From positions 1-24,250 of IMG/VR virus record IMGVR_UViG_3300043395_003054: 24,250 nucleotides of DNA; one strand, given 5' to 3'. A program made the position numbers and the translations under genes. The notes beneath the pieces are model-generated. The model was not told where the DNA came from, searched no databases, and saw only the letters and a program-made list of their open reading frames with translations. The DNA comes from a virus. Shown here in pieces: positions 4,382 to 23,629 of this stretch (the stretch's first letter is position 1; each line of letters opens with the position of its first letter).

Positions 4382-5432
4382 AGTCGAAGTTGGAGGTGAC
4401 GGTGATGCGAACAATCCCGAGGTTCTCGGTCTCAAACACCTTCTCCCAGTTGGCAGCGGTGGCCAGATCGGCGTTGGTGGGGTTCACCGGGCCGATGTAA
4501 CGAGCGCCGAGGGGGTGGTACACGTTGTGCCAGTCCACCGACATTGCATCGCTCTTGGCGAGGATGTCGCGGTCCACTTCCGAGCGAAGGGCTGCTTGCT
4601 GACCGGTGCCAACAGCACCGGTGGCCATCACGTAGCAGGCGTACTTCGTGGTGGAGCCGGTGCCAGAGGTCGGCACATCCTTGGAGCGGATCACCCGCAT
4701 ACCCATGTAGAAGGGCACGCTGATGTTGTTGGTGTAGGCAGCGGCCACCGAACCACCAAAGGCGTTCAGGGCGGTGATGCTGCCAGCAGCTGCGGTGGAA
4801 GCGGTGACGCGAGCATCCGTCGCAGAAACGAAGTCGATCGCCTTGCGCTCTTTGAGGTCCGCATACACCATCGGGTGCATCACGATGGCACCGAGCTTGT
4901 CGGCGTCCTCGTTCAGCAGCACCTCAGCAGCAGCGATCTGACGGGGGCCGAGGGTGGTCTCACCAGAACCGCTGGCATCCACAGTCAGCGCTGCAAAGGC
5001 AGCACCGCTGTTGCTGGAGCCCAGAGCACCAAAGACACCCTTGAGGGTGGCGATCAGGTCTTTCTGCTGCTCGTTGGCGATGTAGTCGGCCACCTTGGCG
5101 CCGATGGCACCCATGGGGTCACTGCCCGCTGCGAGGCGCGCGAGGTCGCGGGATTCCCACGCACGGCCCCTATGCAGAACAACGCCGATTTGCTTATCAG
5201 CGGTGATCTTGCTGGGGGTCAGAGAGGTGCTGTCGGTCAGACGCTCAGCGTCGCCGGTCAGGTTGGCTTTCCAGTTCGGGATCGTAATCTTGTCGCCCCC
5301 GTCGGAAGCGTCCAGTGCTGCCAGTGGGGTGACAACACCGCTGGTGAGGAACGAGTTGCGGACGGTGGATGCCTCAATCAAATAAGGCGTAAAAACCTCG
5401 GGGATGATGACATCCGAGCGAAGCGTTGCCAT
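4380..5432 (-). CDS. Major capsid protein, SPP1 gp13-like
   Basis: 350 residues from ATG 5432. The N-terminus SDVIIPEVFTPYLIEASTVR matches the 'SDVIVPELFNPYVI' start of SPP1 gp13. Further parallels are KITIPNWKANLTGD, the TADKQIGVVLHRGRAWESRDLA segment, GSDPMGAIGAKVADYIANEQQKD and the C-terminal 'D..HP.GARY...NPTNADLATAANWEKVFETENLGIVRI'. HK97-fold capsid proteins of this family form the icosahedral shell around a scaffold core. The gene follows the scaffold gene by 32 bp and precedes the decoration-like gene, the expected order. Length is close to the family's usual 320-350. No frameshift or extra domain is visible. Confidence 0.88.
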   Translation of the reverse strand: MATLRSDVIIPEVFTPYLIEASTVRNSFLTSGVVTPLAALDASDGGDKITIPNWKANLTGDAERLTDSTSLTPSKITADKQIGVVLHRGRAWESRDLARLAAGSDPMGAIGAKVADYIANEQQKDLIATLKGVFGALGSSNSGAAFAALTVDASGSGETTLGPRQIAAAEVLLNEDADKLGAIVMHPMVYADLKERKAIDFVSATDARVTASTAAAGSITALNAFGGSVAAAYTNNISVPFYMGMRVIRSKDVPTSGTGSTTKYACYVMATGAVGTGQQAALRSEVDRDILAKSDAMSVDWHNVYHPLGARYIGPVNPTNADLATAANWEKVFETENLGIVRITVTSNFD

Positions 5433-5464: not shown

Positions 5465-6199
5465 TCAGCCTCGGGTGGCTTCAGCCTTCAGGCGGTCGTG
5501 CAAACTGCGGTCCTCCCGGTACAACCGGGCGATCTCGCTAAGGTTCGGCGGCGATGCCAGAAATGGATTGCTCACAGGGGCAGCGCCAGCAGGCGTAGCT
5601 GGTGTGGACCCCATACCCTTCGCTCCGTTCGGGGCGAAGTGGTGGTCCCAGCCGCTTTCTGGTGCGCGAAGCCTGGCCAAGTGGTCGCTCAGAGGGATCT
5701 CAATGCCCCCGTTGATCACCACCGGTTTGCCGTCAACCTCACGGAGGTCGCTGGCAATCAGCGCCAACAGTTGGTCGGGGCGGAGTGCTTTGGCTTGCGT
5801 GATCTCGCTGAGAGCACGGCTCCGTAGCGTCTCGGTGGCACGCGCTTGACGCTCTGCATCAAGCTGACCCCGTAGCTCCGACATCTGGCGCTCTAGGTCC
5901 AGGTTCGTCGCTTTCGCGTCTTCCCAGAGCTTCTTGTACTCGCCGCTTGCCTCCAGCGTTTGCTGTTGGCCGCTTTTGAGCTGGGCCTGCGTCGCCTTCA
6001 GCGCCTCCTCTAACTCCTGCAACTTGCGATTCAACTCGGCGTTCTTCTCGCCGGCTCGTCGCTTGTCTTCGGAAACCAGATCCAGCTTTGCCCGAAGGCG
6101 TGCCAGTTCATCGGAGGTGGTGCCTTGAGCGTCGGGTGAGGGCGTCACGGACGCACTCTGGTCTTCCGCGGGAAGACCCCCGTTGACGTTTTCAGTCAC
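5465..6199 (-). CDS. Scaffolding protein
   Basis: 244 residues from a GTG at 6199. The first 30 residues are acidic and disordered (DQSASVTPSPDAQGTTSDE). Residues about 30-130 form a long charged heptad-like coiled coil (LARLRAKLDLVSEDKRRAG, then ELNRKLQELEEALKATQ and QMSELRGQLDAERQAR). After a globular segment with HFAPNGAKGMGSTPATP the C-terminus is basic (YREDRSLHDRLKAEATRG), a usual capsid-binding end. Scaffolds assemble the procapsid core and leave or are cleaved before packaging. Its position immediately before the capsid gene is the classic one. No protease domain or motif is seen. A candidate TTACCTGCGTAG element lies 37-48 bases upstream of the start. Confidence 0.85.
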   Translation of the reverse strand: MTENVNGGLPAEDQSASVTPSPDAQGTTSDELARLRAKLDLVSEDKRRAGEKNAELNRKLQELEEALKATQAQLKSGQQQTLEASGEYKKLWEDAKATNLDLERQMSELRGQLDAERQARATETLRSRALSEITQAKALRPDQLLALIASDLREVDGKPVVINGGIEIPLSDHLARLRAPESGWDHHFAPNGAKGMGSTPATPAGAAPVSNPFLASPPNLSEIARLYREDRSLHDRLKAEATRG

Positions 6200-6235
6200 G
6201 CGGGTTGGTGAAAGTACCGCCTAAGTTGCCCTTAA

Positions 6236-6247
6236 CTACGCAGGTAA
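6236..6247 (-). promoter_or_regulatory. TTACCTnAGTAA-family intergenic motif upstream of the scaffold gene
   Basis: Read in the direction of transcription the site is TTACCTGCGTAG, just past the Mu F-like gene's stop and 37 bases before the scaffold start. A second partial copy (GTACCGCCTAAGTTGCC on the plus strand) lies at 6214-6230. Confidence 0.4.
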
Positions 6248-6248
6248 C

Positions 6249-7076
6249 TCACGCGAGGATTGGTAGCACAACGCAGCGGCACCGAGGGTGCAACGGTGGT
6301 GCGCCATTTGGAAACGCCTGCGGGGTTGGTGCGGTGGTGTTATGTAGGGGGCGGCACACCGGGCAGGTCTTGGGGTCCAGCACCGCATTCCAGCGCCACC
6401 CTGTCACCCGCAGCCCGCCACTCTCGGCCGCTAGGGCCGCGGCACGCTGCGCCGCAGGCGCAACGGTGCCCCACAAGGCCGCGGCCGTGATATTCCGCTG
6501 CCGCTCCCGCCACGCATTCGCCACGCTGCCCTTGTTCACCACCGGCACCTCACGCCCCGCTTGGGTGCGGACCCCCACCACCTTCTGCGCCACGTCAGTG
6601 GTTGGTGGGTCCTTGAAGAACATCGAGATCACGCTGCGCTCCAGCAGCTGCAGCATCTGCGTCACCCATGGCGACAACCCCGTGCTCGCATTACGTGCGA
6701 ACAACCGGCTGACACTGGTGCCCACCACCAACGTCTGATCCAACACCTGCGTCACTGGCCGCGGCTGCAACACCCCCTCGGGGAGCTGGAACAACTGGCT
6801 GGTTGGTTTGAGCACCAGCGTCTCGGTGCCGATCAAGCGGTTGTAGACGGTGTTGGCCAGCAGGTCATTGGCCTCCAGCAGCCACAAGATGATCTGACGC
6901 CGCAGCTCCGGCCACCGCAAATACCGCTCAAAACGGTTCTCAGGGAGACGCCTCAGCAGTAGCGCATAGATCCGCAGCGCCAGCTCATACAGCACCTGCT
7001 GCGCCTCGTCGTCGCTTAGATCCTCCTGGCGGGTGATGGCAGTGGCCAGCTCCCGCAGGTAGTCGGCGTTGGTCAT
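6249..7076 (-). CDS. Mu F / SPP1 gp7-like minor head protein
   Basis: 275 residues from ATG 7076 (MTNADYLRELATAITRQ). This start makes a four-base ATGA overlap with the preceding gene, so I prefer it to an ATG 42 bases upstream. The C-terminal 50 residues carry the family signature: GWRWNAVLDPKTCPVCRPLH, a 15-residue spacer and PPLHPRCRCVVLP, with paired cysteines and the HPRCRC element. The rest is helical, with a basic N-terminal part. These proteins bind the portal and sit inside the head; SPP1 gp7 influences DNA exit. It follows the portal and precedes the scaffold, as in SPP1-like phages. The length is ordinary, with no toxin or other C-terminal extension. Confidence 0.88.
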   Translation of the reverse strand: MTNADYLRELATAITRQEDLSDDEAQQVLYELALRIYALLLRRLPENRFERYLRWPELRRQIILWLLEANDLLANTVYNRLIGTETLVLKPTSQLFQLPEGVLQPRPVTQVLDQTLVVGTSVSRLFARNASTGLSPWVTQMLQLLERSVISMFFKDPPTTDVAQKVVGVRTQAGREVPVVNKGSVANAWRERQRNITAAALWGTVAPAAQRAAALAAESGGLRVTGWRWNAVLDPKTCPVCRPLHNTTAPTPQAFPNGAPPLHPRCRCVVLPILA

Positions 7077-7315
7077 GCCGCGTTTGTGCGAGGGACGGGG
7101 TTGTAGTCCGTCTCCCACGCGCTACACACGTCCTTGCTCCCTGTCTGCGGCCAACCCTGAGCCGTTGGCGGGTTGAAGTGGCAGTAGCCCGCCGGATCGG
7201 TAGGAGACCCGTTCCACGGGTGCCACCAACGGCACACAGCACAGGTGGCATCAATCGGCACTAGGTCGCGCATGTAGTCGTGGCGTACCTCACGCCAGCT
7301 GGGGTGATGTCTCAT
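7073..7315 (-). CDS. Small four-cysteine protein (C-x2-C...C...C), copy 1
   Basis: 80 residues from ATG 7315, three bases after the portal stop. Cysteines at residues 25, 28, 45 and 64 sit in the frame CAVCRWW ... GYCHFNPP ... VCSAW. The spacing C-x2-C-x16-C-x18-C suggests a zinc or iron-sulfur site. Small proteins with 'CxxCR(F/W/Y) ... G.C...PP ... W/C' occur widely in phages, usually without a function. The 56-residue product at 15552-15722 shows the same arrangement, so this phage carries two paralogues, one per module. It is coupled to the Mu F-like gene by an ATGA overlap, so a role in head assembly is possible but unproven. Confidence 0.75.
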   Translation of the reverse strand: MRHHPSWREVRHDYMRDLVPIDATCAVCRWWHPWNGSPTDPAGYCHFNPPTAQGWPQTGSKDVCSAWETDYNPVPRTNAA

Positions 7316-7318
7316 GGC

Positions 7319-8914
7319 TTAGTCAGCGTTACGCCCCGGACGCAGCGGCGTCGGCAGCGTCTGGCTGTCCAATGACTCCCCCTGCCCCGCGTTCTGGAAC
7401 GCCATGTCGGGACCACCCTCTGCGGCCAGACGCTCCATCGCCTGCTGCTCCGCCAGCATCTCCTGCGTCCGGCTGATCTCCTCATCAATCGAGAGGGTGG
7501 CGGGAAGAATCTCCCCGTCCTGCAAAATCCCCAGCAGCGTCTGCTGGCTGATCGCCCCCTGCATGTAGAGCTGCAGGTAGGCGGTGATGTCGTTGCCGGT
7601 GACGAGGCGGTTGTCGTAGTCCCGCGGGATGTAGACGGTGGGGGGCTCGATGCCGACGTACTCCGCAGCCAGCTCAAACAGTTGGCTCACGGCGCGCTCC
7701 AAGTCGCCGGCGATGACCGCCATGATCGAGTCGCTATCAATGCGGTCCAGCCGCCTCGCCTCCGCAGCAGCGTTGGTGAGATTGCTCTGACTCAGCGTGT
7801 TAATCCCCAGCCGGCTGATCTGATCCTCCAGCGCCTGCAGACACCGCAGCTGGCTGTCAAACGCCTCGCTGTTGGGGGCCACAAACTCCGCACCCCCATC
7901 CGGCGGGAGCAGCAAGGCGGTGTTGCAGCTAATCCCCAACGGGGTGTCGCTATCCGGGTCGAAGCCCCGCAACACCAGCATCGGGTTGGCAGATACGTGG
8001 ATGCCGTGGTGCAGGTCCGCAAAACGCTGGGCATAGGCGATCACCAAATGCGCCACCTCCAGCAGCGGTGGTGCGCTGATCAGATTCCCCTTGCGGTTGG
8101 AATACACCGTCACCAGCGGAATCCGGCTCAGCGATGTGGTGCCGCTGTCGTACAACTCCCATTGCGATGGTGGTGGCTGCAGTCCCCCGTATGGCGGGAC
8201 GGGGTTGGGTTTGGGTGCGCTGCGCCATAGCTCATACCCCCCAGGGGTGAGCACCCGCACCTGATCCACGACCTGCTCGCCATAAGCCCCAAAAGGCACC
8301 ACGATCTGCTCGCGGATGCGGACCTGGCTCAGATCGCTGCTGCTGGAGTCATTGCTGGTGCGCCATCCCAACACCTGCCGGGGATGCACCGGCACCAGAT
8401 AGGGCTTGCGATTGAGCTGACGCTCCTCCGCCAGGTTCCGTGGCGTCGTGACGTTGGCGAAATCAACAATGGAGCTGCTATGGCCAAACAGCAGCGCCGT
8501 CACCAACTGACGCCTTGCGTACTCGTTCAAGGTGGTGCCATCACCTGTAACGTCCTTCGTCCACTCCTCCCAATACTCGTCGCCCTCCACCTGCACCCCC
8601 TTGCGCAGGATTACCCCCGCAGCCTGAGACGCCAACCGCTGCAGAAACGGAGGGAGGGTGGCATGGAAGATCCGCCGGTTGTAAGCGTCATCCGCTTCTG
8701 AGTTCTCCTGGGGGATCAGGTCGCGGCAGTTCAACCGCAATCCCGTCGTCCCCGACAGACACGTATCAATCGGCGCCCAGTCACTCGCCATCCCCACCAC
8801 CGCATTGCTGACCACACTCGGGTCGTCGGCGTTGGTGCTCGCCTGACTGGCCGGGTAGGTCAGCAGTGGCGACAGCACGCTCGCCGCATTCGGGTAGGTG
8901 CTATTGCTCGCCAC
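7319..8914 (-). CDS. Portal protein (DUF4055-like)
   Basis: 531 residues from a GTG at 8914. The order of segments matches large phage portals: an N-terminal 'YDDAYNRRI' region (EADDAYNRRIFHATLPPFLQ), GVILRKGVQVEG, the 'ALLFGHSSSIVDF' helix, KPYLVPVHPRQVLGWR and a central beta part. A long helical stem follows (FADLHHGIHVSANPMLVLRG ... FDSQLRCLQALEDQISRLG), then NAAAEARRLDRIDSDSIMAVIAGDLERAVSQLFELA. The portal forms the dodecameric gate for DNA and docks the terminase. The 'HPRQVLGWR' and 'RLDRIDSDS' segments recall DUF4055 portals. The gene lies between the 110-aa gene and the Mu F-like gene, the expected place. Confidence 0.85.
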   Translation of the reverse strand: MASNSTYPNAASVLSPLLTYPASQASTNADDPSVVSNAVVGMASDWAPIDTCLSGTTGLRLNCRDLIPQENSEADDAYNRRIFHATLPPFLQRLASQAAGVILRKGVQVEGDEYWEEWTKDVTGDGTTLNEYARRQLVTALLFGHSSSIVDFANVTTPRNLAEERQLNRKPYLVPVHPRQVLGWRTSNDSSSSDLSQVRIREQIVVPFGAYGEQVVDQVRVLTPGGYELWRSAPKPNPVPPYGGLQPPPSQWELYDSGTTSLSRIPLVTVYSNRKGNLISAPPLLEVAHLVIAYAQRFADLHHGIHVSANPMLVLRGFDPDSDTPLGISCNTALLLPPDGGAEFVAPNSEAFDSQLRCLQALEDQISRLGINTLSQSNLTNAAAEARRLDRIDSDSIMAVIAGDLERAVSQLFELAAEYVGIEPPTVYIPRDYDNRLVTGNDITAYLQLYMQGAISQQTLLGILQDGEILPATLSIDEEISRTQEMLAEQQAMERLAAEGGPDMAFQNAGQGESLDSQTLPTPLRPGRNAD

Positions 8915-9287: not shown

Positions 9288-10642
9288 CAGTAGGTTCTGA
9301 AACTGCTGCCCCCAGTCGCCCAGCGGCGGAGAGGGGCTAAGTAGTGGATGGCATACCCCAGCGCATCCACAGGACCGCTCACGTCCTCAATGCCACCCCG
9401 ACCTTTTTCTGGGTTCCCGTCCTTCGCATAGCACTGCTGCTCCATTGACTTAATCAGGTACTTGCAGCGGTTGTGGACTTTCAATCGATCCGCCATCAGC
9501 AGCACGTTGATGCAGTTCACACGGTCTGCGATCTGGGGGTTGGCCTGCTGGGCCTTGATCGTGAAGCCCCCTTTGCGCAGCAAGGACAGGTCCGACTCCG
9601 CTGCGTTGGTGGTCGTGCGCTGCCTGGCCGCGGCGTCAGGGATGATCACCACGTTGCCCTGCTCAATCTGCTGGGGGTAGGTCTCCTGCAGCAGCCGCAC
9701 CAGCGCGGGGGTGTCCTTGGGGTAGTGCTCCGCGACGACGTGGAACTCGTCCCCCCGGCGAACGACCACCTCGGTGAAGACCGACCCCACGTTGAAGTCC
9801 ACCCCAATCAACAGGCGGTCGTCATCACGGATCTCCGTATCGCACCAATGGCGGTCCCTGTCGAACGGATGGTAGACCGTCGTGTTTGCAAGGTTGGTAA
9901 ACTCACCGTTGATGTAGCTGGCAATTAAGTTGGCGTCGTAGTTCTGATACAGCGAATCGACGAATCCATCCGGGAGATGGGGGTTGTCGGTGGTCTTGGC
10001 TTTAATCAAACGCCGGTCCGGTCTGTCACCCTGCTCAACGAAGCAGCGGTAGAAAAACTTATAGCCCTCAGGTGTAGACGCCACTGCCAACTGGGGTTTG
10101 ACGCCACCACGCAAACGGGCCAGCATCATCTCTGATGCCTTTTGTGCGACCTCTAGGGGAGAAGTATCAAGCTCGTCAGCCAAAACATAGCTCAATGTCT
10201 GGCCCCTGATTCTATTAAATGTCTCGGTTGCTCTACAAATAAGGGTGACAGGGCCACGGGGTAGGTGCAGCACATATTCCGGCTGGGGTGACACCCGGAA
10301 GTCGTGTTCAATGCGAAACTCCTCCAAGAAACTGTCGAAACTTCGCATCCAAACGTCCCTCAGGAGGATGTTGGTGGGCTCAAACACCGCTGCCGTAGTA
10401 TTTGGGTTATCCATCCCGAGAAATATGGCCTTTGCGTTAAGCGCGTGGGTCTTACCTGCACCAAATCCTGCACAATACCCGAGGATCTTGTGGTCGGTAT
10501 CGTCTACAAACTCTTTCTGCGCGGGGAGAAGGGTGTCGTAGATCCGCTTGCGCAGGCTCTCGTAGCTCTCGCTGCAGCGGGTGCTGGTGCGCTGCGGGGG
10601 CTCCAGCACGTTCCCCCCAGCAATCACGCTCAGCACCGACAC
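9287..10642 (-). CDS. terL: Terminase large subunit
   Basis: 451 residues from a GTG at 10642. The ATPase domain has Walker A GFGAGKTH (59-66), Walker B YVLADE (152-157) and a likely coupling segment AVASTPEGYKF (186-196). The C-terminal RNase H-like nuclease domain shows the acidic triad: D282 in LIGVDFNVGS, D336 in IIPDAAA and D426 in VDALGYAIHYL. The protein cuts concatemeric DNA and pumps it into the head through the portal. Length is normal. The middle of the gene (about 9880-10470) is visibly AT-richer than its ends, suggesting a recombined segment. It is separated from the terminase-small-like gene by an unusual 550-bp non-coding region. Confidence 0.93.
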   Translation of the reverse strand: MSVLSVIAGGNVLEPPQRTSTRCSESYESLRKRIYDTLLPAQKEFVDDTDHKILGYCAGFGAGKTHALNAKAIFLGMDNPNTTAAVFEPTNILLRDVWMRSFDSFLEEFRIEHDFRVSPQPEYVLHLPRGPVTLICRATETFNRIRGQTLSYVLADELDTSPLEVAQKASEMMLARLRGGVKPQLAVASTPEGYKFFYRCFVEQGDRPDRRLIKAKTTDNPHLPDGFVDSLYQNYDANLIASYINGEFTNLANTTVYHPFDRDRHWCDTEIRDDDRLLIGVDFNVGSVFTEVVVRRGDEFHVVAEHYPKDTPALVRLLQETYPQQIEQGNVVIIPDAAARQRTTTNAAESDLSLLRKGGFTIKAQQANPQIADRVNCINVLLMADRLKVHNRCKYLIKSMEQQCYAKDGNPEKGRGGIEDVSGPVDALGYAIHYLAPLRRWATGGSSFRTY

Positions 10643-15912: not shown

Positions 15913-16518
15913 CTAGAAGGGGCTCTTGAACGGGTCCCCGCCTGTCAGGAGGGCCTGCAGATTGCACCCCTCAGAGACGCACTGCTGCCACGCTGCGGTG
16001 ACCTGCTCAGCAATCGCTCCCTTCCGCTTCCCTGGCTTGAGGACCACCGTGTAGCGGGTGTCCATACCAGTGCCGGTGCGGTTCAGCTCGAAGTCCCAGC
16101 TACCGGGGTCGTTGCTGACATCCTCATCGCTCAGCAGAGCAGCAAGGGTGTCCAGAATCGACCGCTGACTGGCCTGGAACAGCTGCACCGAGTTGGTGCT
16201 GTAGTTCCACACCCAAAACGCCAGGGCTTGCTTCAGGCGGGAGGGTTCCCCCTTCTGATCGACAAGGGAGACTCCTTCGTCATTGGCGCGGTCCTGCAGT
16301 TCCTTGGGGGTGGGTTCCTCCGCAAACCGCAGACACTTGGGACGACCCTCGCTGGTGCGTCCCCACACCTCCATGAAGTCCAGCGACTTATCCCCCACGG
16401 GGGAGAAGCGCACCGTCTCCCCATCGTTGAGGGAACCGGGGTTCAGGTACAGATCACCGTTGGCGCCGGACTTCTTTTCCTTGACGGCGGTGACGAAGCG
16501 TTCAGAAACAAAGGGCAT
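15913..16518 (-). CDS. Probable single-stranded DNA-binding protein
   Basis: 201 residues from ATG 16518. The product opens MPFVSERFVTAVKEKKSGAN, then has GETVRFSPVGDKSLDFMEVW and RPKCLRFAEEPTPKE. These are followed by KQALAFWVWNYSTNSVQLFQ and the C-terminal SWDFELNRTGTGMDTRYTVV and LKPGKRKG. The combination of aromatic beta-strands, 'FWVWNY...VQ.FQ.SQ..I...L' and 'WDFELNRTG.GMDTRYTV' is what I associate with phage ssDNA-binding proteins related in layout to T4 gp32. Its place between the nuclease and the PrimPol-helicase supports this. The usual acidic C-terminal tail is not evident; the end is FKSPF. Confidence comes from pattern memory plus context. Confidence 0.65.
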   Translation of the reverse strand: MPFVSERFVTAVKEKKSGANGDLYLNPGSLNDGETVRFSPVGDKSLDFMEVWGRTSEGRPKCLRFAEEPTPKELQDRANDEGVSLVDQKGEPSRLKQALAFWVWNYSTNSVQLFQASQRSILDTLAALLSDEDVSNDPGSWDFELNRTGTGMDTRYTVVLKPGKRKGAIAEQVTAAWQQCVSEGCNLQALLTGGDPFKSPF

Positions 16519-16867: not shown

Positions 16868-16879
16868 CTACTGAGGTAA
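16868..16879 (-). promoter_or_regulatory. TTACCTCAGTAG motif before the 88-aa gene
   Basis: The 12-mer (minus strand) contains the last codons and stop of the 221-aa gene and lies 31 bases before the next start at 16836. Confidence 0.45.
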
Positions 16880-17533
16880 GGGTTCCCCATTGATAGAGGC
16901 GGTGATCACGTCCCACACCTCCCCCTCGCCAATCCCCAGCTCCTTCGCCATCAAGGGGATCGCCTCCACCACCTCATCCCCATAGGGGGTGCCGTTCCAC
17001 AGCAACTTCTCAACGGCGGGGTGAAGCTCCCGAAACCGCCTCTCGTCGGTGCAGCTCCAATCAATCCCCTTGGCTGCCAAGGAGACCCTCAACCACCTCC
17101 CCAGATCCTTGGCCACCTTGGCCTCGCTCTCCGCAGGGATCTCCCGCAGATCCTCCAGCCCCAGGTCCAGCAGACCGGTGAACACCGCAAACAGGTCGGT
17201 GGGGCCTAGCGGTCTCCCAGTGGGGTCCACCATCGGCTTCAATCCTTCCTTCGGCATCAGGGAGGCTGGAACCTTCCCCAAGGCGATGGCCTCGTTCACG
17301 AGGCCCAACGCCAAGAACCCCTTAGGACCCGGATCCCGCAGCTCCCCCTTCGAGAAGCCGGTGATGTGGGTGCTATGCAGCACCCGATCCCCCAGCACCG
17401 CCTCTGCCACCTTCAACCACTTCGGCTGACTGATCTGACGGAAGAACGGCTTGGTCAGCTTCCGCATCTGCTCCCTCCCCTTCTCCACTTGGGTGGTCAC
17501 AGGGCCTGGGGGGTACTGGCTTGGCTTGCCCAT
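16868..17533 (-). CDS. Hypothetical replication-module protein (221 aa)
   Basis: 221 residues from ATG 17533. The N-terminus is basic and hydrophilic (TQVEKGREQMRKLTKPFFRQ). The centre holds a helical region (GPKGFLALGLVNEAIALGKV) and a helical/acidic part (PTDLFAVFTGLLDLGLEDLR, AESEAKVAKDLGRWLRVSLA). The C-terminus is acidic and ends PLPQ. No nuclease, ATPase or metal motif is visible. It sits between the PrimPol-helicase and the ssDNA-binding gene, separated from the helicase by the 200-bp repeat array, so a replication accessory or origin-binding role deserves thought but is not shown. Confidence 0.65.
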   Translation of the reverse strand: MGKPSQYPPGPVTTQVEKGREQMRKLTKPFFRQISQPKWLKVAEAVLGDRVLHSTHITGFSKGELRDPGPKGFLALGLVNEAIALGKVPASLMPKEGLKPMVDPTGRPLGPTDLFAVFTGLLDLGLEDLREIPAESEAKVAKDLGRWLRVSLAAKGIDWSCTDERRFRELHPAVEKLLWNGTPYGDEVVEAIPLMAKELGIGEGEVWDVITASINGEPLPQ

Positions 17534-17564: not shown

Positions 17565-17710
17565 CTATAGCAGGGGGTGGTGCTCCTGTCAGGTGGCGGT
17601 GCAACCCTGAGGCAGATGGGGTGGGGTTAGGGGGTGTTATGGGGTGAGACTCAAGAGACACCACCTACGACTCTCTTCCCAAAAACTCCCCCACACCCCC
17701 CTGTTCAATC

Positions 17711-17911
17711 TTTGATCCTTAAGTCCCCACTCCCCTTCCACCGCAACGGTTTACGTGGATCACGAGGGGGTACTTTTGGATCACCTCCAGACTTAAGGAT
17801 CACGCCCCCACACCTCCCCGTGATCCAAAACTCCCCCCATGATCCAAAACCCCTCTCCGTGATCCACGTAAACCCTTCCCTTGCAAGGGCTCTGACCACT
17901 TAAGGATCAAA
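17711..17911. repeat. Nested inverted-repeat (iteron-like) array, candidate replication origin
   Basis: Eight sites with the core GGATCA(C) are arranged symmetrically about position 17811. Outer pair: TTTGATCCTTAAG (17711-17723) and CTTAAGGATCAAA (17899-17911), perfect inverts. Second pair: TTTACGTGGATCACG (17750-17764) and CGTGATCCACGTAAA (17858-17872), also perfect. Inner sites are TTTTGGATCAC (17774-17784), CTTAAGGATCACG (17792-17804), CGTGATCCAAAA (17819-17830) and ATGATCCAAAA (17839-17849). The spacers are C-rich and do not pair, so this looks like an array of protein sites rather than one long hairpin. A 12-bp palindrome CCCTTGCAAGGG lies at 17878-17889. The remainder of the 17534-17933 gap (17566-17710) holds no gene. 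Confidence 0.85.
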
Positions 17912-17936
17912 AACACCCGAGGGGGTAAACCCCTCA
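17909..17936 (-). terminator. Intrinsic terminator of the PrimPol-helicase gene
   Basis: On the minus strand GAGGGG pairs with CCCCTC around TTTAC, right at the helicase stop codon, followed by GGGTG and five T. The T-run overlaps the outermost array site. Confidence 0.65.
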
Positions 17937-20267
17937 CTTCACCCAATACCGGTAGGTGGGGCGACCCGTCATCGCCACCACCGTGCTCACCCTCTGAATC
18001 CCCACACTCCGATCCCCCATCAGACGGGCTAACGCCCGCTTGCACGTCACCCGTGACACGTTCGTCATCCCCGCCACCTCGTCCAAGCTCACAGCCGTCT
18101 CCTCGCTCCTCCCCCTCAGAACCTCCAACACCTTCCTCTCCGAGTCCCTCAGCTCCTTAACCCCCCGATCTGAGTTGTTTAACCCCTCCACCTGGAAGCT
18201 CAGATCCTCCGTGCTCCCACTCAACACATACACATCGCCCCCCATCGTCACCCCAGTCCGTGGCTTCAACACCTTCAACAGGAACCGCGGATGGTCAGGA
18301 TTGCTCTCTGGATCCCTGATCACCCCCCACACGTCACTGGTCCCGTTAACGATGAATGCACTCCCAAACAGATCCTGCATATGGATCTCTGTCCGCTTCC
18401 CCGCTGCTCGATCCCCCTTCCGTAGGTGGTGCGTCAGCAAAATGGCGCACCCCTCCTCCGCTGCCATCGCGTTCAGCAGATACATATAGGTGCCGATCTG
18501 ACCCTCCGTTAAATCCCCGTCACTCCCAAACAGCGAAAACAACGAATCCATCAACACATACCGAGCCTCGTGCTCTCGAATCCACTTCCTCAGCTCTGGC
18601 AGCATCCCCCCGTTAAACCGAAACCTCACCTGCACACGACCGCTGGGCATCTGGGCACGCATCAACGCATCCTTCGCTGCCAAGTTGCTGTCTGACTCAT
18701 CCTTCTGAATAATCAGCACATTGCCAGGCACCGTCTGCAACTGCCCTGCAAATGGCTTCCCATTGGCCGCGGCCTCCGCAATCCGATACAGCAACACCGA
18801 CTTACCAACACCCCCGTCAGACGCCACGATGGTGAGGGCGTTAAATGCCAGCAGTCTCTCAATCGCTACCTCAATCGGCTTCGCATTAGCCACCACCTCA
18901 TTCCACTCCCCACCGGCCAGCGGGGAATCCTCCTCTTGGATGTGACGCAGCAGCATCTTCAACTCTCGCTCCGTGCAATCAAGGGCTCTACCCAGATTCT
19001 GGTAGGCGCACTCCCGCTCAAGCGGGGAGTCCATCGCCTCAATCACCTCTAACGCCCTCCGTAGACCCGTAACCTTCTTCGCCACCCCTGTAGTGAGGGT
19101 GTCGGCATTGACCTCCCTTGGCGGCAGCGCCCACTTGGGCCACTCAAACCCACCCTCCAGAGCTGCAGAGACAATCGAACCCCACCCACACATGTGCTCC
19201 TCGTCGGTAGCACTGCGGGATAGGGACTGCATCAGCTGCTCAAACGACCCCAAGTTCCCGTCGCTCCAGTCGTTCCTTCGATCCCACTCCTGACCGCCAA
19301 GCCACTGCAACGCCGTCTCAATCCCCAATACATTCAGCAGCCCAGCTACCAACGGCCTAAACCTGTTCTGATAACTCGCTGCAAATGGACTGTCAGCAGG
19401 TGCTCCCCGGTAAGGCCAGTGCTTCTGCATCAACAACAGCAACCGTCGCTGATCCCTCGGCAGCAGTAGGTCACAAGGCTGTGGTTCCCCAGCTGCTCTC
19501 CTAGCGGCGAAGCTCTCGTCATCGCTAATGGCAGCGCGGGCTACACGGCTCTGCTCCACATATCGGATGAATCCGCCCAACACCCAAGGCGGTGCCACTG
19601 CTACACCCACAACCGCTGGGTGGAGGCCGTCCAGCCAGCGATACGCTAAGGGGTGAGACTCAGTGGACTCGGGATGATCGCCGGCAATTACTGCCTGCTT
19701 GGCGGTGCCGGTGCCGTTCAGCCACAACGCCTCAAACGCATGTTTCTTCCCGTCGGCATAGGGGCCAGCGTCAAACGACCAGTACCCCAGCACCGGCCAC
19801 CAATCCGGCGGCACCATCAGGAACACCTTGCGTCGGCCGCGCCGTCCACTGGTATTGGCCGCCGTCACGGGCAGCTCTGAGCTGGCCCGCCCAAAGACCT
19901 GCACAAAGGTCTCCTCCGCAAGCCCGTCCAGCGCTTGGTCCTGCGGCTCATCAAAGTCCAGCACCAGCAACCCGCCCGAACTGGGACCGGTCAGCACACC
20001 TGCCCCGATGCAGGTGGCTACAAAGTCGCCGTTGCGCTGCAGCAGTTGAACAGCGGTGTACGCCTTCTGGGGATCGGCGTTCCACTGACGCTCGAAACAG
20101 TCCTTAACGCTGCCCTTGTTCCCTGTCCCGCAGAGCCGCCACTGCTCAGGTAGCCCAGCCAGCTGAGGCAGGTGGGCTGCAGGGATTCGGGACCTGATCT
20201 GACGGTGGGAGTCCGTGAGCTGCTCCAGTTCACGGTCGAACCTCTCCCCAAACCCGCCAGCTGTCAT
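17934..20267 (-). CDS. PrimPol-helicase (primase-polymerase fused to RecA-like helicase)
   Basis: 777 residues from ATG 20267; GAGG lies nine bases upstream. The N-terminal domain is a primase-polymerase: AGVLTGPSSGGLLVLDFDEP gives the DxD pair (D104, D106) and the AVIAGDHPESTESHPLAYRW stretch gives the conserved His region (about 192-211). After a helical linker, the C-terminal domain is a RecA-like ATPase: Walker A SDGGVGKSVLL (483-493), Walker B RYVLMDSLFSLFG (569-581) and the sensor-like AILLTHHLRKGDRAAG. The last 90 residues look like a winged helix (SLDEVAGMTNVSRVTCKRAL). It would unwind and prime DNA at the fork. It is divergent from the gene at 20369 and sits beside the array, so it is the likely array partner. 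Confidence 0.88.
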   Translation of the reverse strand: MTAGGFGERFDRELEQLTDSHRQIRSRIPAAHLPQLAGLPEQWRLCGTGNKGSVKDCFERQWNADPQKAYTAVQLLQRNGDFVATCIGAGVLTGPSSGGLLVLDFDEPQDQALDGLAEETFVQVFGRASSELPVTAANTSGRRGRRKVFLMVPPDWWPVLGYWSFDAGPYADGKKHAFEALWLNGTGTAKQAVIAGDHPESTESHPLAYRWLDGLHPAVVGVAVAPPWVLGGFIRYVEQSRVARAAISDDESFAARRAAGEPQPCDLLLPRDQRRLLLLMQKHWPYRGAPADSPFAASYQNRFRPLVAGLLNVLGIETALQWLGGQEWDRRNDWSDGNLGSFEQLMQSLSRSATDEEHMCGWGSIVSAALEGGFEWPKWALPPREVNADTLTTGVAKKVTGLRRALEVIEAMDSPLERECAYQNLGRALDCTERELKMLLRHIQEEDSPLAGGEWNEVVANAKPIEVAIERLLAFNALTIVASDGGVGKSVLLYRIAEAAANGKPFAGQLQTVPGNVLIIQKDESDSNLAAKDALMRAQMPSGRVQVRFRFNGGMLPELRKWIREHEARYVLMDSLFSLFGSDGDLTEGQIGTYMYLLNAMAAEEGCAILLTHHLRKGDRAAGKRTEIHMQDLFGSAFIVNGTSDVWGVIRDPESNPDHPRFLLKVLKPRTGVTMGGDVYVLSGSTEDLSFQVEGLNNSDRGVKELRDSERKVLEVLRGRSEETAVSLDEVAGMTNVSRVTCKRALARLMGDRSVGIQRVSTVVAMTGRPTYRYWVK

Positions 20268-21313: not shown

Positions 21314-21480
21314 GACCCCTGATCACCAAGCCCTACCGGGTGACCACCAGCATCCGCTCGGTGCATGTGATGGCCACCAGTCACTCCGCGGCGATGTTCA
21401 CCGCCAAAGAGCTGTACCCCGGCGAAACCATTATCTCAGTGCTCTATGACCCGGACTGGGATGTGGAGGTGGTGGCTTGA
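21310..21480 (+). CDS. Small protein upstream of the exonuclease gene (56 aa)
   Basis: 56 residues from ATG 21310 (MRPLITKPYRVTTSIRSVHV). Basic N-terminus, then SHSAAMFTAKELYPGETIIS and an acidic end (LYDPDWDVEVVA). The pattern 'strand-helix-strand' with GETIISVLYDPDW suggests a small alpha/beta fold. It bridges the 73-aa gene (ATGA overlap) and the exonuclease gene (TTGA overlap), so ribosomes should pass through it. No named family recognised. Confidence 0.6.
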   Translation: MRPLITKPYRVTTSIRSVHVMATSHSAAMFTAKELYPGETIISVLYDPDWDVEVVA

Positions 21481-22172
21481 GCATCACCTCCGAGATCACT
21501 GCCCTGGGCCAGCTGATCTGCTGTGACACCGAGACAGCTCTCGCCCCCCTCTCCTTCCAGGGGCGCCAGTACGTCCGGCTCATTCAGTTCTACTCCGAGC
21601 AAGGGGAGCGCTGGTACGACCTCAAGACCTTCACCGACGCCCAGTGGGATGAGCTGAAGGTGCTGATGGAAGACCCCTCCATCACTTGGATCTTCCAAAA
21701 CGCCCTCTTTGATTATCGCGTGCTGCTGGGCTGCGGCATCCGCATCCAAGGCCCCATCGAAGACACCCTCATCCAAAGCGCCCTGATCAACAACGGCCTT
21801 GCTCTTGGTAACTCCCTAGAGGAGATCGCCCTGCGGGTGGTGAAGGTGAAGCTCGATAAGACCCTGCAGGCGCAGGACTGGATGAACGCGGAGCTGAACG
21901 ACGCCGACATGGACTACGCCATGGGTGATGTCCGCATCACCTACCAGTGCTGGCAAGAGCAACGCGCCCAGATCAAAACCGCTGGCCTCCAGCAGGTGTA
22001 TGACCTGGAACGCGCTCTCATTCCCGCTGTGGTGGAGATGGAGCACACCGGCATGAAGGTGGATGTGCAGCAGGCCCAACGGGCCATTGCCCAGCTTGAA
22101 GAGGAGATCGAAGCCAGCCGCGGTGAGTTCCTTGATCTGCTGGATGCCCAGCTCCGGGAGCTACCGGAATGA
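21477..22172 (+). CDS. DNA polymerase family A, 3'-5' exonuclease part (split gene)
   Basis: 231 residues from a TTG at 21477, overlapping the previous stop. The proofreading motifs are complete: Exo I CCDTET (D17, E19), Exo II FQNALFDY (N75, D79) and Exo III YAMGDVRITY (Y147, D151). The C-terminal 60 residues follow the usual link toward the polymerase domain (YDLERALIPAVVEMEHTGMK, VDVQQAQRAIAQLEEEIEAS). The reading frame then stops, and the polymerase part begins 341 bp later in another frame. So this is an independent exonuclease subunit, likely to work with the protein at 22514-23629. Simple sequencing error is unlikely because two coupled small genes lie between. Confidence 0.85.
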   Translation: MSITSEITALGQLICCDTETALAPLSFQGRQYVRLIQFYSEQGERWYDLKTFTDAQWDELKVLMEDPSITWIFQNALFDYRVLLGCGIRIQGPIEDTLIQSALINNGLALGNSLEEIALRVVKVKLDKTLQAQDWMNAELNDADMDYAMGDVRITYQCWQEQRAQIKTAGLQQVYDLERALIPAVVEMEHTGMKVDVQQAQRAIAQLEEEIEASRGEFLDLLDAQLRELPE

Positions 22173-22360
22173 GGAGCGCCAAACACGTCGGCATGGCGGT
22201 GGATCTCGCCGCGGCCAGCCGTGACGGCTTCAACTGGGAGATGGCGCAGATCATCGCCACCCTTGCCCTTAGTTACTACGTTCAGTCCACAGAAGAGCTG
22301 CAAGTCCTCTGGGACCAGCTGCCCCCAGAGAAGCGCACGGCACAGCGCCATGAAAAGTAA
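22169..22360 (+). CDS. Small protein inside the split polymerase locus, 1 (63 aa)
   Basis: 63 residues from ATG 22169, overlapping the exonuclease stop (ATGA). The product (MRSAKHVGMAVDLAAASRDG, then FNWEMAQIIATLALSYYVQS, TEELQVLWDQL, basic end) has a central hydrophobic helix, possibly membrane-facing or a helical bundle element. No motif is recognised. It lies where a fused polymerase would carry thumb-domain sequence, but it does not resemble that domain. It overlaps the next gene by 11 bases. Confidence 0.55.
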   Translation: MRSAKHVGMAVDLAAASRDGFNWEMAQIIATLALSYYVQSTEELQVLWDQLPPEKRTAQRHEK

Positions 22361-22514
22361 CCTCCAGGGCTTTTTGTTTAAGGACAAGCGCCTGCCCATC
22401 CCCCTGCGCAAGCGCTTCTACATCGAGTGGTACGGCTGGTGGCGTGGGGTGTCACACCGCGCTGCTGTTAAAGCCGCCCACGAATACATCTCACGCCGCC
22501 GCGATGACTACTGA
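22350..22514 (+). CDS. Small basic protein inside the split polymerase locus, 2 (54 aa)
   Basis: 54 residues from ATG 22350 (MKSNLQGFLFKDKRLPIPLR). Very basic and aromatic (KRFYIEWYGWWRGVSHRAAV, HEYISRRRDDY), so nucleic acid contact is plausible. No named family. Overlaps the previous gene and, by TGATG, the polymerase start. Confidence 0.55.
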   Translation: MKSNLQGFLFKDKRLPIPLRKRFYIEWYGWWRGVSHRAAVKAAHEYISRRRDDY

Positions 22515-23629
22515 TGGCACAACTTCCCCGCAACCCTGACGGCACCTACAACCTCCGCCCCAAGCCCACTGGCCGGGGGAAGGACAAGTTGGAGGCTGGC
22601 TTCAACATCAACAGCACCCAGCAGGTGCTCAAATACCTCAACCAGATCGGTCTCGATCCCCGCGACCCCAAGACCGGCAAGCCCACCACCGATAAGAAGG
22701 TGCTGCGGCCCCTAGCCGATAACCCCGTGGTCTATGCACTTCTTGCATACAAGCGGGCCGAGAAGCGGCGCTCCATGGTGCAGAGCTGGCTGGACAAGAA
22801 CATCGAAGCCGATGGACGCCTCCACGCCCGCTTTGCCCCGCTGCAGACGGGGACAGGGCGCTTCAGCTGTTCTTCACCAAATCTTCAGCAAGTCCCCAGG
22901 GAGACTTACATCCGCAACTGCTTTATCGCTGATGAGGGCAACGAGCTGGTGGTGATGGATGTGAAGAACATGGAGATGGGCGTGGCCTGCAGCGAACCCA
23001 TCGCCAACGAACCCCTGATGCAGCAGGCATTGCGGGACGGGATGGATCTGCACACCTTCACCGCCCACCTCATCTTCAACGTCCCACTTGAGGAGGTGGG
23101 GAAGGATGAAAGGCAGCGTGCTAAGAGTTGTAACTTCGGCTTGCTGTACGGGTCTGGCTCAGCCGGGTTACGGGACTACTTCGCCTCCTTTGGTAATGCC
23201 ATCACCTACGACGAGGCCGTGGAGTTCCGAGACGCCTGGCTCAAGGCGTACCCCGCCATGGCCAGCTGGCACAGCTGGGCCAAAAACGAGGTGGCCAAGG
23301 GGGAGGTGCGCATGGTGGATGGCCGCAGGCGGTGGCTGATCGGGGATATGGCCCGCCACACCGTTCTCCTCAACAATATAACTCAAGGTACAGCGGCTTC
23401 TATAGTTAAACAGACAATGGTTAGCGTCTGGCCTCGTTTGCCAGAAAGGGCGAAAATTATCGCTCAAATACACGATGAGTTGATTGTTGAAACGCCGGAG
23501 GGCACTGGTGAGGACGTTCTAGACTTAATGAAAAAACATCTCTTTGATGCTGGCAGGCAAATACTTGGTGACTCAGTAGACATGCTAGGTGAAGGTTCTG
23601 TCGCTAAATCGTGGGGGCAAGCTAAATGA
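22514..23629 (+). CDS. DNA polymerase family A, polymerase part (split gene)
   Basis: 371 residues from ATG 22514. It carries the family A polymerase domain without an exonuclease: TGTGRFSCSSPNLQQVPR (113-129), motif A VVMDVKNMEMG (D149, E154), motif B RQRAKSCNFGLLYGSG (R202, K204, Y212) and motif C IIAQIHDELIV (H320, D321, E322). The thumb start (FNINSTQQVLKYLNQIGLDP) marks the split point. Catalytic residues are present, though motif A departs from the usual DYSQIELR. The last 85 residues (from about 23370) are AT-richer than the rest, shared with the following endonuclease gene. Overlaps that gene by ATGA. Confidence 0.88.
   Translation: MAQLPRNPDGTYNLRPKPTGRGKDKLEAGFNINSTQQVLKYLNQIGLDPRDPKTGKPTTDKKVLRPLADNPVVYALLAYKRAEKRRSMVQSWLDKNIEADGRLHARFAPLQTGTGRFSCSSPNLQQVPRETYIRNCFIADEGNELVVMDVKNMEMGVACSEPIANEPLMQQALRDGMDLHTFTAHLIFNVPLEEVGKDERQRAKSCNFGLLYGSGSAGLRDYFASFGNAITYDEAVEFRDAWLKAYPAMASWHSWAKNEVAKGEVRMVDGRRRWLIGDMARHTVLLNNITQGTAASIVKQTMVSVWPRLPERAKIIAQIHDELIVETPEGTGEDVLDLMKKHLFDAGRQILGDSVDMLGEGSVAKSWGQAK

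Follow-up and report, generated by a model that had tools for sequence, protein, structure and literature searches.

The window analysed here, a 24,250-base virus record, likely comes from a cyanophage, because its large terminase is closest to those of the cyanobacterial siphoviruses KBS-S-2A, S-H1 and MED4-184 (38–40% identity). Its replication module (Table 1) is built around a protein in which a PrimPol-type primase is followed by a RecA-type helicase and, in a structure model, by a C-terminal winged helix, an order that corresponds to the PrimQH-type architecture (primase, RecA-type helicase, winged helix) described previously (PMC5862659); no PriCT match was among the Pfam matches listed for this protein. 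The family A DNA polymerase of the module is divided between two ORFs (exonuclease, 231 aa; polymerase, 371 aa), and its exonuclease and polymerase parts likewise match separately in relatives. The gene-free gap of 400 bp that the earlier note had described extends from the stop codon of the primase-helicase gene at 17934 to the start of the ORF for a 221-aa protein (p221) at 17533, and all eight GGATCA sites reported there are present, with replication genes as their neighbours.

Table 1. Features of the replication module and of the repeat array in the window (positions in the 24,250-base record).
Feature	Position	Strand	Remarks
GGATCA iteron array	17713..17909	.	Basis: site positions, shuffles, symmetry test
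Site 1, outer, outward	17713..17718	-	Extended site GACTTAAGGATCAAAG
Site 2, inward	17757..17762	+	Extended site TTTACGTGGATCACGA
Site 3, inward	17778..17783	+	Extended site TACTTTTGGATCACCT
Site 4, inward	17797..17802	+	Extended site GACTTAAGGATCACGC
Site 5, inward	17821..17826	-	Extended site GAGTTTTGGATCACGG
Site 6, inward	17840..17845	-	Extended site GGGTTTTGGATCATGG
Site 7, inward	17860..17865	-	Extended site TTTACGTGGATCACGG
Site 8, outer, outward	17904..17909	+	Extended site CACTTAAGGATCAAAA; 24 bp from initiator stop codon
Long imperfect hairpin potential	17697..17925	-	Spans whole array
Probable first constant-box copy CAGAGCCCTTGCAAGGGAAGGG	17871..17901	-	Weak match, 5/200 shuffles as good
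Probable second constant-box copy AACCGTTGCGGTGGAAGGGGA	17731..17751	-	Far side of core
Intrinsic-terminator-like hairpin with T run	17914..17936	-	Overlaps initiator stop codon
PrimPol-AAA_25 helicase-winged helix protein, 777 aa	17934..20267	-	Proposed initiator
Prim-Pol domain match	19584..20066	-	Residues 68-228
AAA_25 (RecA-type) helicase domain	18411..18902	-	Residues 456-619; E 6.8e-18
C-terminal domain	17937..18170	-	Residues 700-777; winged-helix model; proposed site reader
221-aa protein (p221)	16868..17533	-	Next downstream gene, conserved neighbour
SSB-like protein	15913..16518	-	Same replication module
Split family A DNA polymerase (exonuclease + polymerase ORFs)	21477..23629	+	Same replication module

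The eight sites run in the order < >>> <<< > and are mirrored about position 17811, off by one base at most: the four mirror pairs are centred on 17811.0, 17811.0, 17811.5 and 17811.5, confirming the earlier observation of exact outer pairs and of inner pairs shifted by one base. This array is more than chance by count, by position and by orientation. When the whole window was dinucleotide-shuffled 60 times, no 6-mer reached more than five copies in any 200-bp stretch, against the eight observed; given eight sites within the same span, the mirrored positions have a probability of ~1.2e-4, and the mirrored orientations bring an additional chance factor of 1/16. GC skew, which had been proposed as a check, does not change sign at the array and provides no origin signal and no support either way; nor does an AT-rich unwinding element of markedly low stability occur there, and duplex stability is equally neutral. 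Rfam matches in the gap were far under gathering scores, and a DNA search of the array region against a phage collection matched nothing. Between the array and p221 (17601–17700) lies a G-rich tract followed by a C-rich tract (GGGGTTAGGGGGTG and ACTCCCCCACACCCCCC), and comparable G/C tracts stand beside the arrays of four related loci (L007, L012, L174 and L181).

Relatives were gathered by searching IMG/VR with the polymerase, the initiator, p221, the SSB-like protein and the C-terminal half of the initiator. These searches added ten initiators of this family whose loci include the 3' gap. In an eleventh locus, L010, the same flanks enclose a different initiator: there, a DUF3987 protein (5675–8047) wholly replaces the PrimPol-AAA_25 initiator in a module that otherwise matches, and it has an array of its own with 12 sites. 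In all 12 loci (i.e., the window and these eleven) an array is located at the 3' end of the initiator gene, with eight different site sequences: in addition to GGATCA, these are TAAACCAACA (L007, L012, L181), TTAATCAACC (L174), TAACGGACA (L203), CTTTTACTC (L194), TGCACTAAAC (L199, L200, L202), GCGCACAATT (L198) and AACTGTCGAA (L010), and cross-matches between the classes are close to zero. The earlier note had stated that its reading would fail if relatives kept the flanking genes and lost the array. Taken literally this is the case, as none of the relatives has a GGATCA array, but an array of other sites stands there instead, often in the same layout.

Because the site motifs were picked after viewing the sequences, we added a de novo repeat count. 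For 11 of the 12 gaps, its best repeated word beat every one of 100 dinucleotide shuffles at one or more of three word settings; the exception is L198, where exact 7-mers were equalled by one shuffle in 100 and longer words gave no signal. The same count detected nothing in the control gaps of L205, L209 and S-CBS4, and no array follows S-CBS4 gp082 or, where readable, the corresponding genes of L205 to L209, whose helicases have 28–29% identity. Scans of genome collections with initiator alignments found no prophage relatives, and a pattern search of IMG/VR for GGATCA triplets returned at least 120 stretches, mostly from non-relatives as determined by tblastn comparison. One further candidate, L002, was rejected as a relative, its match being chance-sized and beside a terminase. 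Among cultured cyanophages, S-LBS1 carries an array (CTGCCTAACC) in both orientations right after its primase-helicase gene, the helicase in this case being VapE-type. The S-LBS1 record (L173) ends within a second, perfect copy, 127 bp long, of its iteron region (10167–10293 and 10421–10547), which is either a real duplication, like P4 crr, or an assembly artefact.

Judging from these loci, the layout is often kept though the site sequences differ. The window and L007, whose sites are unrelated, have the identical orientation string <>>><<<> when read in gene direction, and the chance of eight matching orientations is 2 in 256 if either labelling of motif direction is allowed. The string of L012 starts <>>><< and that of L181 <>>><, and the first outward site is 27 nt past the start of the stop codon in the window and L012 alike. 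A second layout, >><< with sites at 27, 83, 115 and 171, occurs in L199 and L202, and L198 has >>< at 29, 85 and 104 with letters different from those of L199 and L202. Symmetry is not universal: L194 has a plain tandem array.

What the site sequence follows can be read from natural recombinants. On both flanks, L010 and L012 are 86–89% identical in DNA; across the initiator gene and the array this identity disappears, and it returns 17 bp past the last site. Their p221 proteins are 92% identical and their arrays have nothing in common, so the 221-aa neighbour does not set the site, which makes it an unlikely site reader, a role for which it had been a candidate in the earlier note. L012 and L174 have different sites, with identities of 94% (PrimPol), 72% (helicase) and 53% (C-terminal domain); L012, L007 and L181 have their sites in common, and are 84–86% identical in the helicase and only 73–76% in PrimPol. 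Finally, L202 resembles L198 in PrimPol (79%), in the linker (87%) and once more in the region past the array, and it resembles L199 in the helicase (92%), the C-terminal domain (95%) and the sites; its DNA identity switches near 4800 and 6200, with the array at 6050–6204. On the identities in these three recombinants (L010, L012/L174 and L202), the site sequence therefore goes with the part of the initiator made up of helicase and C-terminal domain, and with neither its PrimPol half nor the 221-aa neighbour. The far breakpoints lie just past the array, between it and the next gene, in three of three recombinants.

The C-terminal domain of the window initiator models as a winged helix with a mean pLDDT of 80, and a structure search with it returned many winged-helix DNA-binding proteins (Z 8 to 9.8); this result identifies the generic winged-helix fold only, and the lack of an origin-binding domain among the matches listed excludes nothing. 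L194 matches HTH/MarR families directly, and the model of the L010 C-terminus was too poor to use. The region that the model would assign to the recognition helix reads HRGSVERVV in L007, L012 and L181, HPTAVSRVV in L174 and SRVTCKRAL in the window. We propose this winged helix as the putative reader of the sites, in line with the previous suggestion that the C-terminal winged helices of PrimPol-helicases act in origin recognition (PMC5862659).

The spacers of the array had earlier been taken not to pair, with selection on protein sites and not on a hairpin. The strand from 17697 to 17925 folds to -66.4 kcal/mol, compared with -26.9 (sd 3.3) in shuffles (z -12); with the sites held fixed, z remains at -3.3 to -4.2, none of 150 sequences folding as well when the 16-nt sites were kept and the spacers shuffled (z -4.2), and permuting the eight extended sites among their positions reached the observed energy in one of 200 trials. 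The spacers thus add to the pairing, and dismissing a hairpin was unjustified for the window copy, although L194 and L181 have significant iterons and no hairpin (z 0.1 and -0.4, respectively). Hairpin z is -2.8 or lower in 10 of the 12 gaps, and the pairing in L007, L012, L174 and L181 is what the inverted sites alone give (z -1.5 to +0.8); in a spacer control on six gaps, pairing exceeded the sites' own share only in the window and L010. Across the gaps compared, iterons are the common denominator, because two relatives keep them without a hairpin, and the hairpin is, by predicted folding, a property of the better mirrored copies.

Adjoining the iterons is a constant box (TTTCGCTGWRATCNCTTGG..TGANAGGG) that is kept between initiators of ~40% identity. 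A profile built from L007, L012 and L181 only (TTTCGCTGAGATCCCTTGGTATGACAGGGG) has a match 29–48 nt past the stop codon in L198, L199, L200, L202 and L203 (0/200 shuffles as good). The best match in L174 (1/200 shuffles) lies on the core's far side, and a weaker match stands at position 48; L010 has a weak match (6/200 shuffles as good) elsewhere in its gap, and the profile has no match in L194. A second copy, weaker and often inverted, is found on the far side of the core. The box is probably under selection of its own, because the helicases of L198–L202 are only ~38–42% identical to those of the three seed loci and the iterons are unrelated; perhaps, and this is a guess, it is a priming site or the site of a constant protein.

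We read the array as the iteron core of a replication origin, bound by the winged helix of the adjacent initiator, and put the probability of this reading at roughly 0.8. The relatives provide the placement of the arrays, their covariation with the helicase/winged-helix half and the frequent retention of the layout, all seen in their sequences; direct binding, ring loading and its geometry, bidirectional firing and origin activity are what we infer from these. The winged helix at the C-terminus of the PrimPol-helicase would bind each site, and from the inward triplets to the left and right of the centre, two helicase rings would be loaded head to head. The duplex would then be opened by the helicase and primed by the N-terminal PrimPol, with the phage family A polymerase extending the primers. 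Of the earlier origin reading, the array of protein sites, the probable origin and the link to the primase-helicase thus find support in the relatives, and p221 as the likely reader and the denial of a hairpin in this copy are given up.

It is unlikely, if not negligibly so, that a stem-loop is itself read as the origin, with the repeated sites serving only as the paired arms of a hairpin of unconstrained sequence. The folding of the window strand, also with sites fixed, and the pairing in most gaps would fit this, as would the stem-loop of pRN1, which lies downstream of the PrimPol-helicase gene, past the terminator, and is kept in structure and not in sequence (PMC4234260); the window likewise has a terminator-like hairpin first. 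However, L194 and L181 retain iterons without a hairpin, the pairing in L007, L012, L174 and L181 is within the sites' own contribution, and identical repeated units inside one arm would be needless for a pure hairpin. The array might also be an operator, without any origin, for the downstream genes (p221, SSB-like protein, exonuclease) or for autoregulation of the initiator operon, as its place in a long gap between co-oriented genes and the frequent winged helices of repressors would allow; we consider this quite improbable, given that the downstream gene is unchanged where array and initiator were replaced together, that no sigma-70-like promoter was found in the window gap (a weak test), and that several sites in both orientations 3' of an initiator helicase gene correspond to the origin placement of SaPI type.

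Because the array adjoins the 3' end of the gene and recombination tracts would carry both, physical linkage alone could mimic cognate pairing of site and C-terminal domain, with the array being read by a protein encoded elsewhere. The far breakpoints argue against this: arbitrary tracts would be expected often to enter p221 or to end before the array, yet all three end between array and next gene, and the whole-gene replacement in L010 brought a new array too, leaving linkage as sole cause a slim chance. Least of all do we credit a cluster for partition, packaging or Dam-type methylation, which eight GATC in 197 bp (one inside each GGATCA) might bring to mind. Dam/GATC clustering was rejected because the other site classes lack GATC (0 of 7), and the arrays track the initiator, not terminase or methylase genes.

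The earlier note knew of no described phage origin with this exact arrangement. In kind, however, an iteron origin read by an adjacent initiator helicase is already known, since SaPI origins have their iterons directly downstream of rep, where they are recognised by the C-terminal domain of the Rep helicase (PMC7581432). Like SaPI Rep and SCCmec Cch2, the window initiator would thus be a helicase whose C-terminal domain reads short iterons immediately 3' of its gene: multiple short repeats are found there, and a C-terminal DNA-binding domain on the helicase is predicted by the winged-helix model and by the HTH matches of L194. Unlike SaPI Rep, the helicase of the window is of AAA_25/RecA-type and fused to PrimPol, not DUF927 or D5/Primase_Cterm; its sites form a near-perfect dyad with outward outer sites, and its bearer is a probable cyanophage in place of a satellite. 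The window system would therefore work like SaPI Rep and is no member of that group, because its helicase family is AAA_25.

Both P4 alpha and ORF904 of pRN1 are primase-helicase-winged helix proteins (PMC4234260). As in P4 alpha (ori, crr), primase, helicase and a C-terminal winged helix for binding origin repeats would be united in one polypeptide (PMC4234260), but the primase of P4 is of Toprim type, and the two are likened by architecture. PrimPol, helicase and winged helix are also joined in pRN1 ORF904 and BPP-1, with a stem-loop 3' of the gene that is essential in pRN1 and predicted in BIP-1/BPP-1, and that is poorly conserved in sequence among pRN plasmids; the window hairpin resembles that of pRN1 both in place and in unconserved sequence (PMC4234260). 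The helicases of pRN1 and BPP-1 are of SF3/D5 type, in contrast to the AAA_25 RecA-type helicase of the window, and their origins have been described as a stem-loop without iterons, with specific binding undetected for pRN1. For the Vibrio cholerae PLE, RepA and its iteron origin likewise change together: by module swapping, the origin covaries with the DNA-binding domain of RepA, and cognate specificity has been shown (PMC8263062). RepA is RepA_N-type, however, with replisome recruitment as the presumed role of its separate C-terminal domain, and is no primase-helicase fusion. RSF1010 similarly has its own helicase, primase and iteron recognition in RepA, RepB' and RepC (PMC4234260), although as three separate proteins, of which RepC reads the iterons.

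Tentatively, and with rather more doubt than confidence, we suggest that an exchangeable cassette (helicase domain, winged helix and iteron array) carries origin specificity while the constant flanking box is kept, that phages repeatedly change origin identity with the rest of the replication module unrewired, and that iterons and a long hairpin are combined. If this is true, the layout unites the PrimPol stem-loop origins of pRN1 type with the iteron origins of P4/SaPI type. Within the literature searched, there is novelty in the host group, in the mirrored layout, in the way helicase-winged helix-array cassettes are repeatedly exchanged between phages, in the constant box and in the joint presence of iterons and hairpin. 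Few phage origins are known beyond model systems, and for these uncultured, probably cyanobacterial, siphoviruses one could predict from sequence where the origin lies, which protein reads it and what its sites are. The natural recombinants amount to a ready-made specificity experiment, with seven site classes that each have their own version of the winged helix. The fast turnover of origin identity might let phages evade defences aimed at the origin, which has been proposed for PLE and Odn, or prevent cross-replication by co-infecting relatives.

Bordetella phage BPP-1 (L211) contains a 48-nt inverted repeat (608–711; record 26607–26710), whose arms consist of tandem units, TTGCCTCGT in one and AAACGAGGC in the other, located ~470 bp past the stop codon of its PrimPol-D5 primase gene. 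The class of predicted stem-loop origins may hide inverted iterons.
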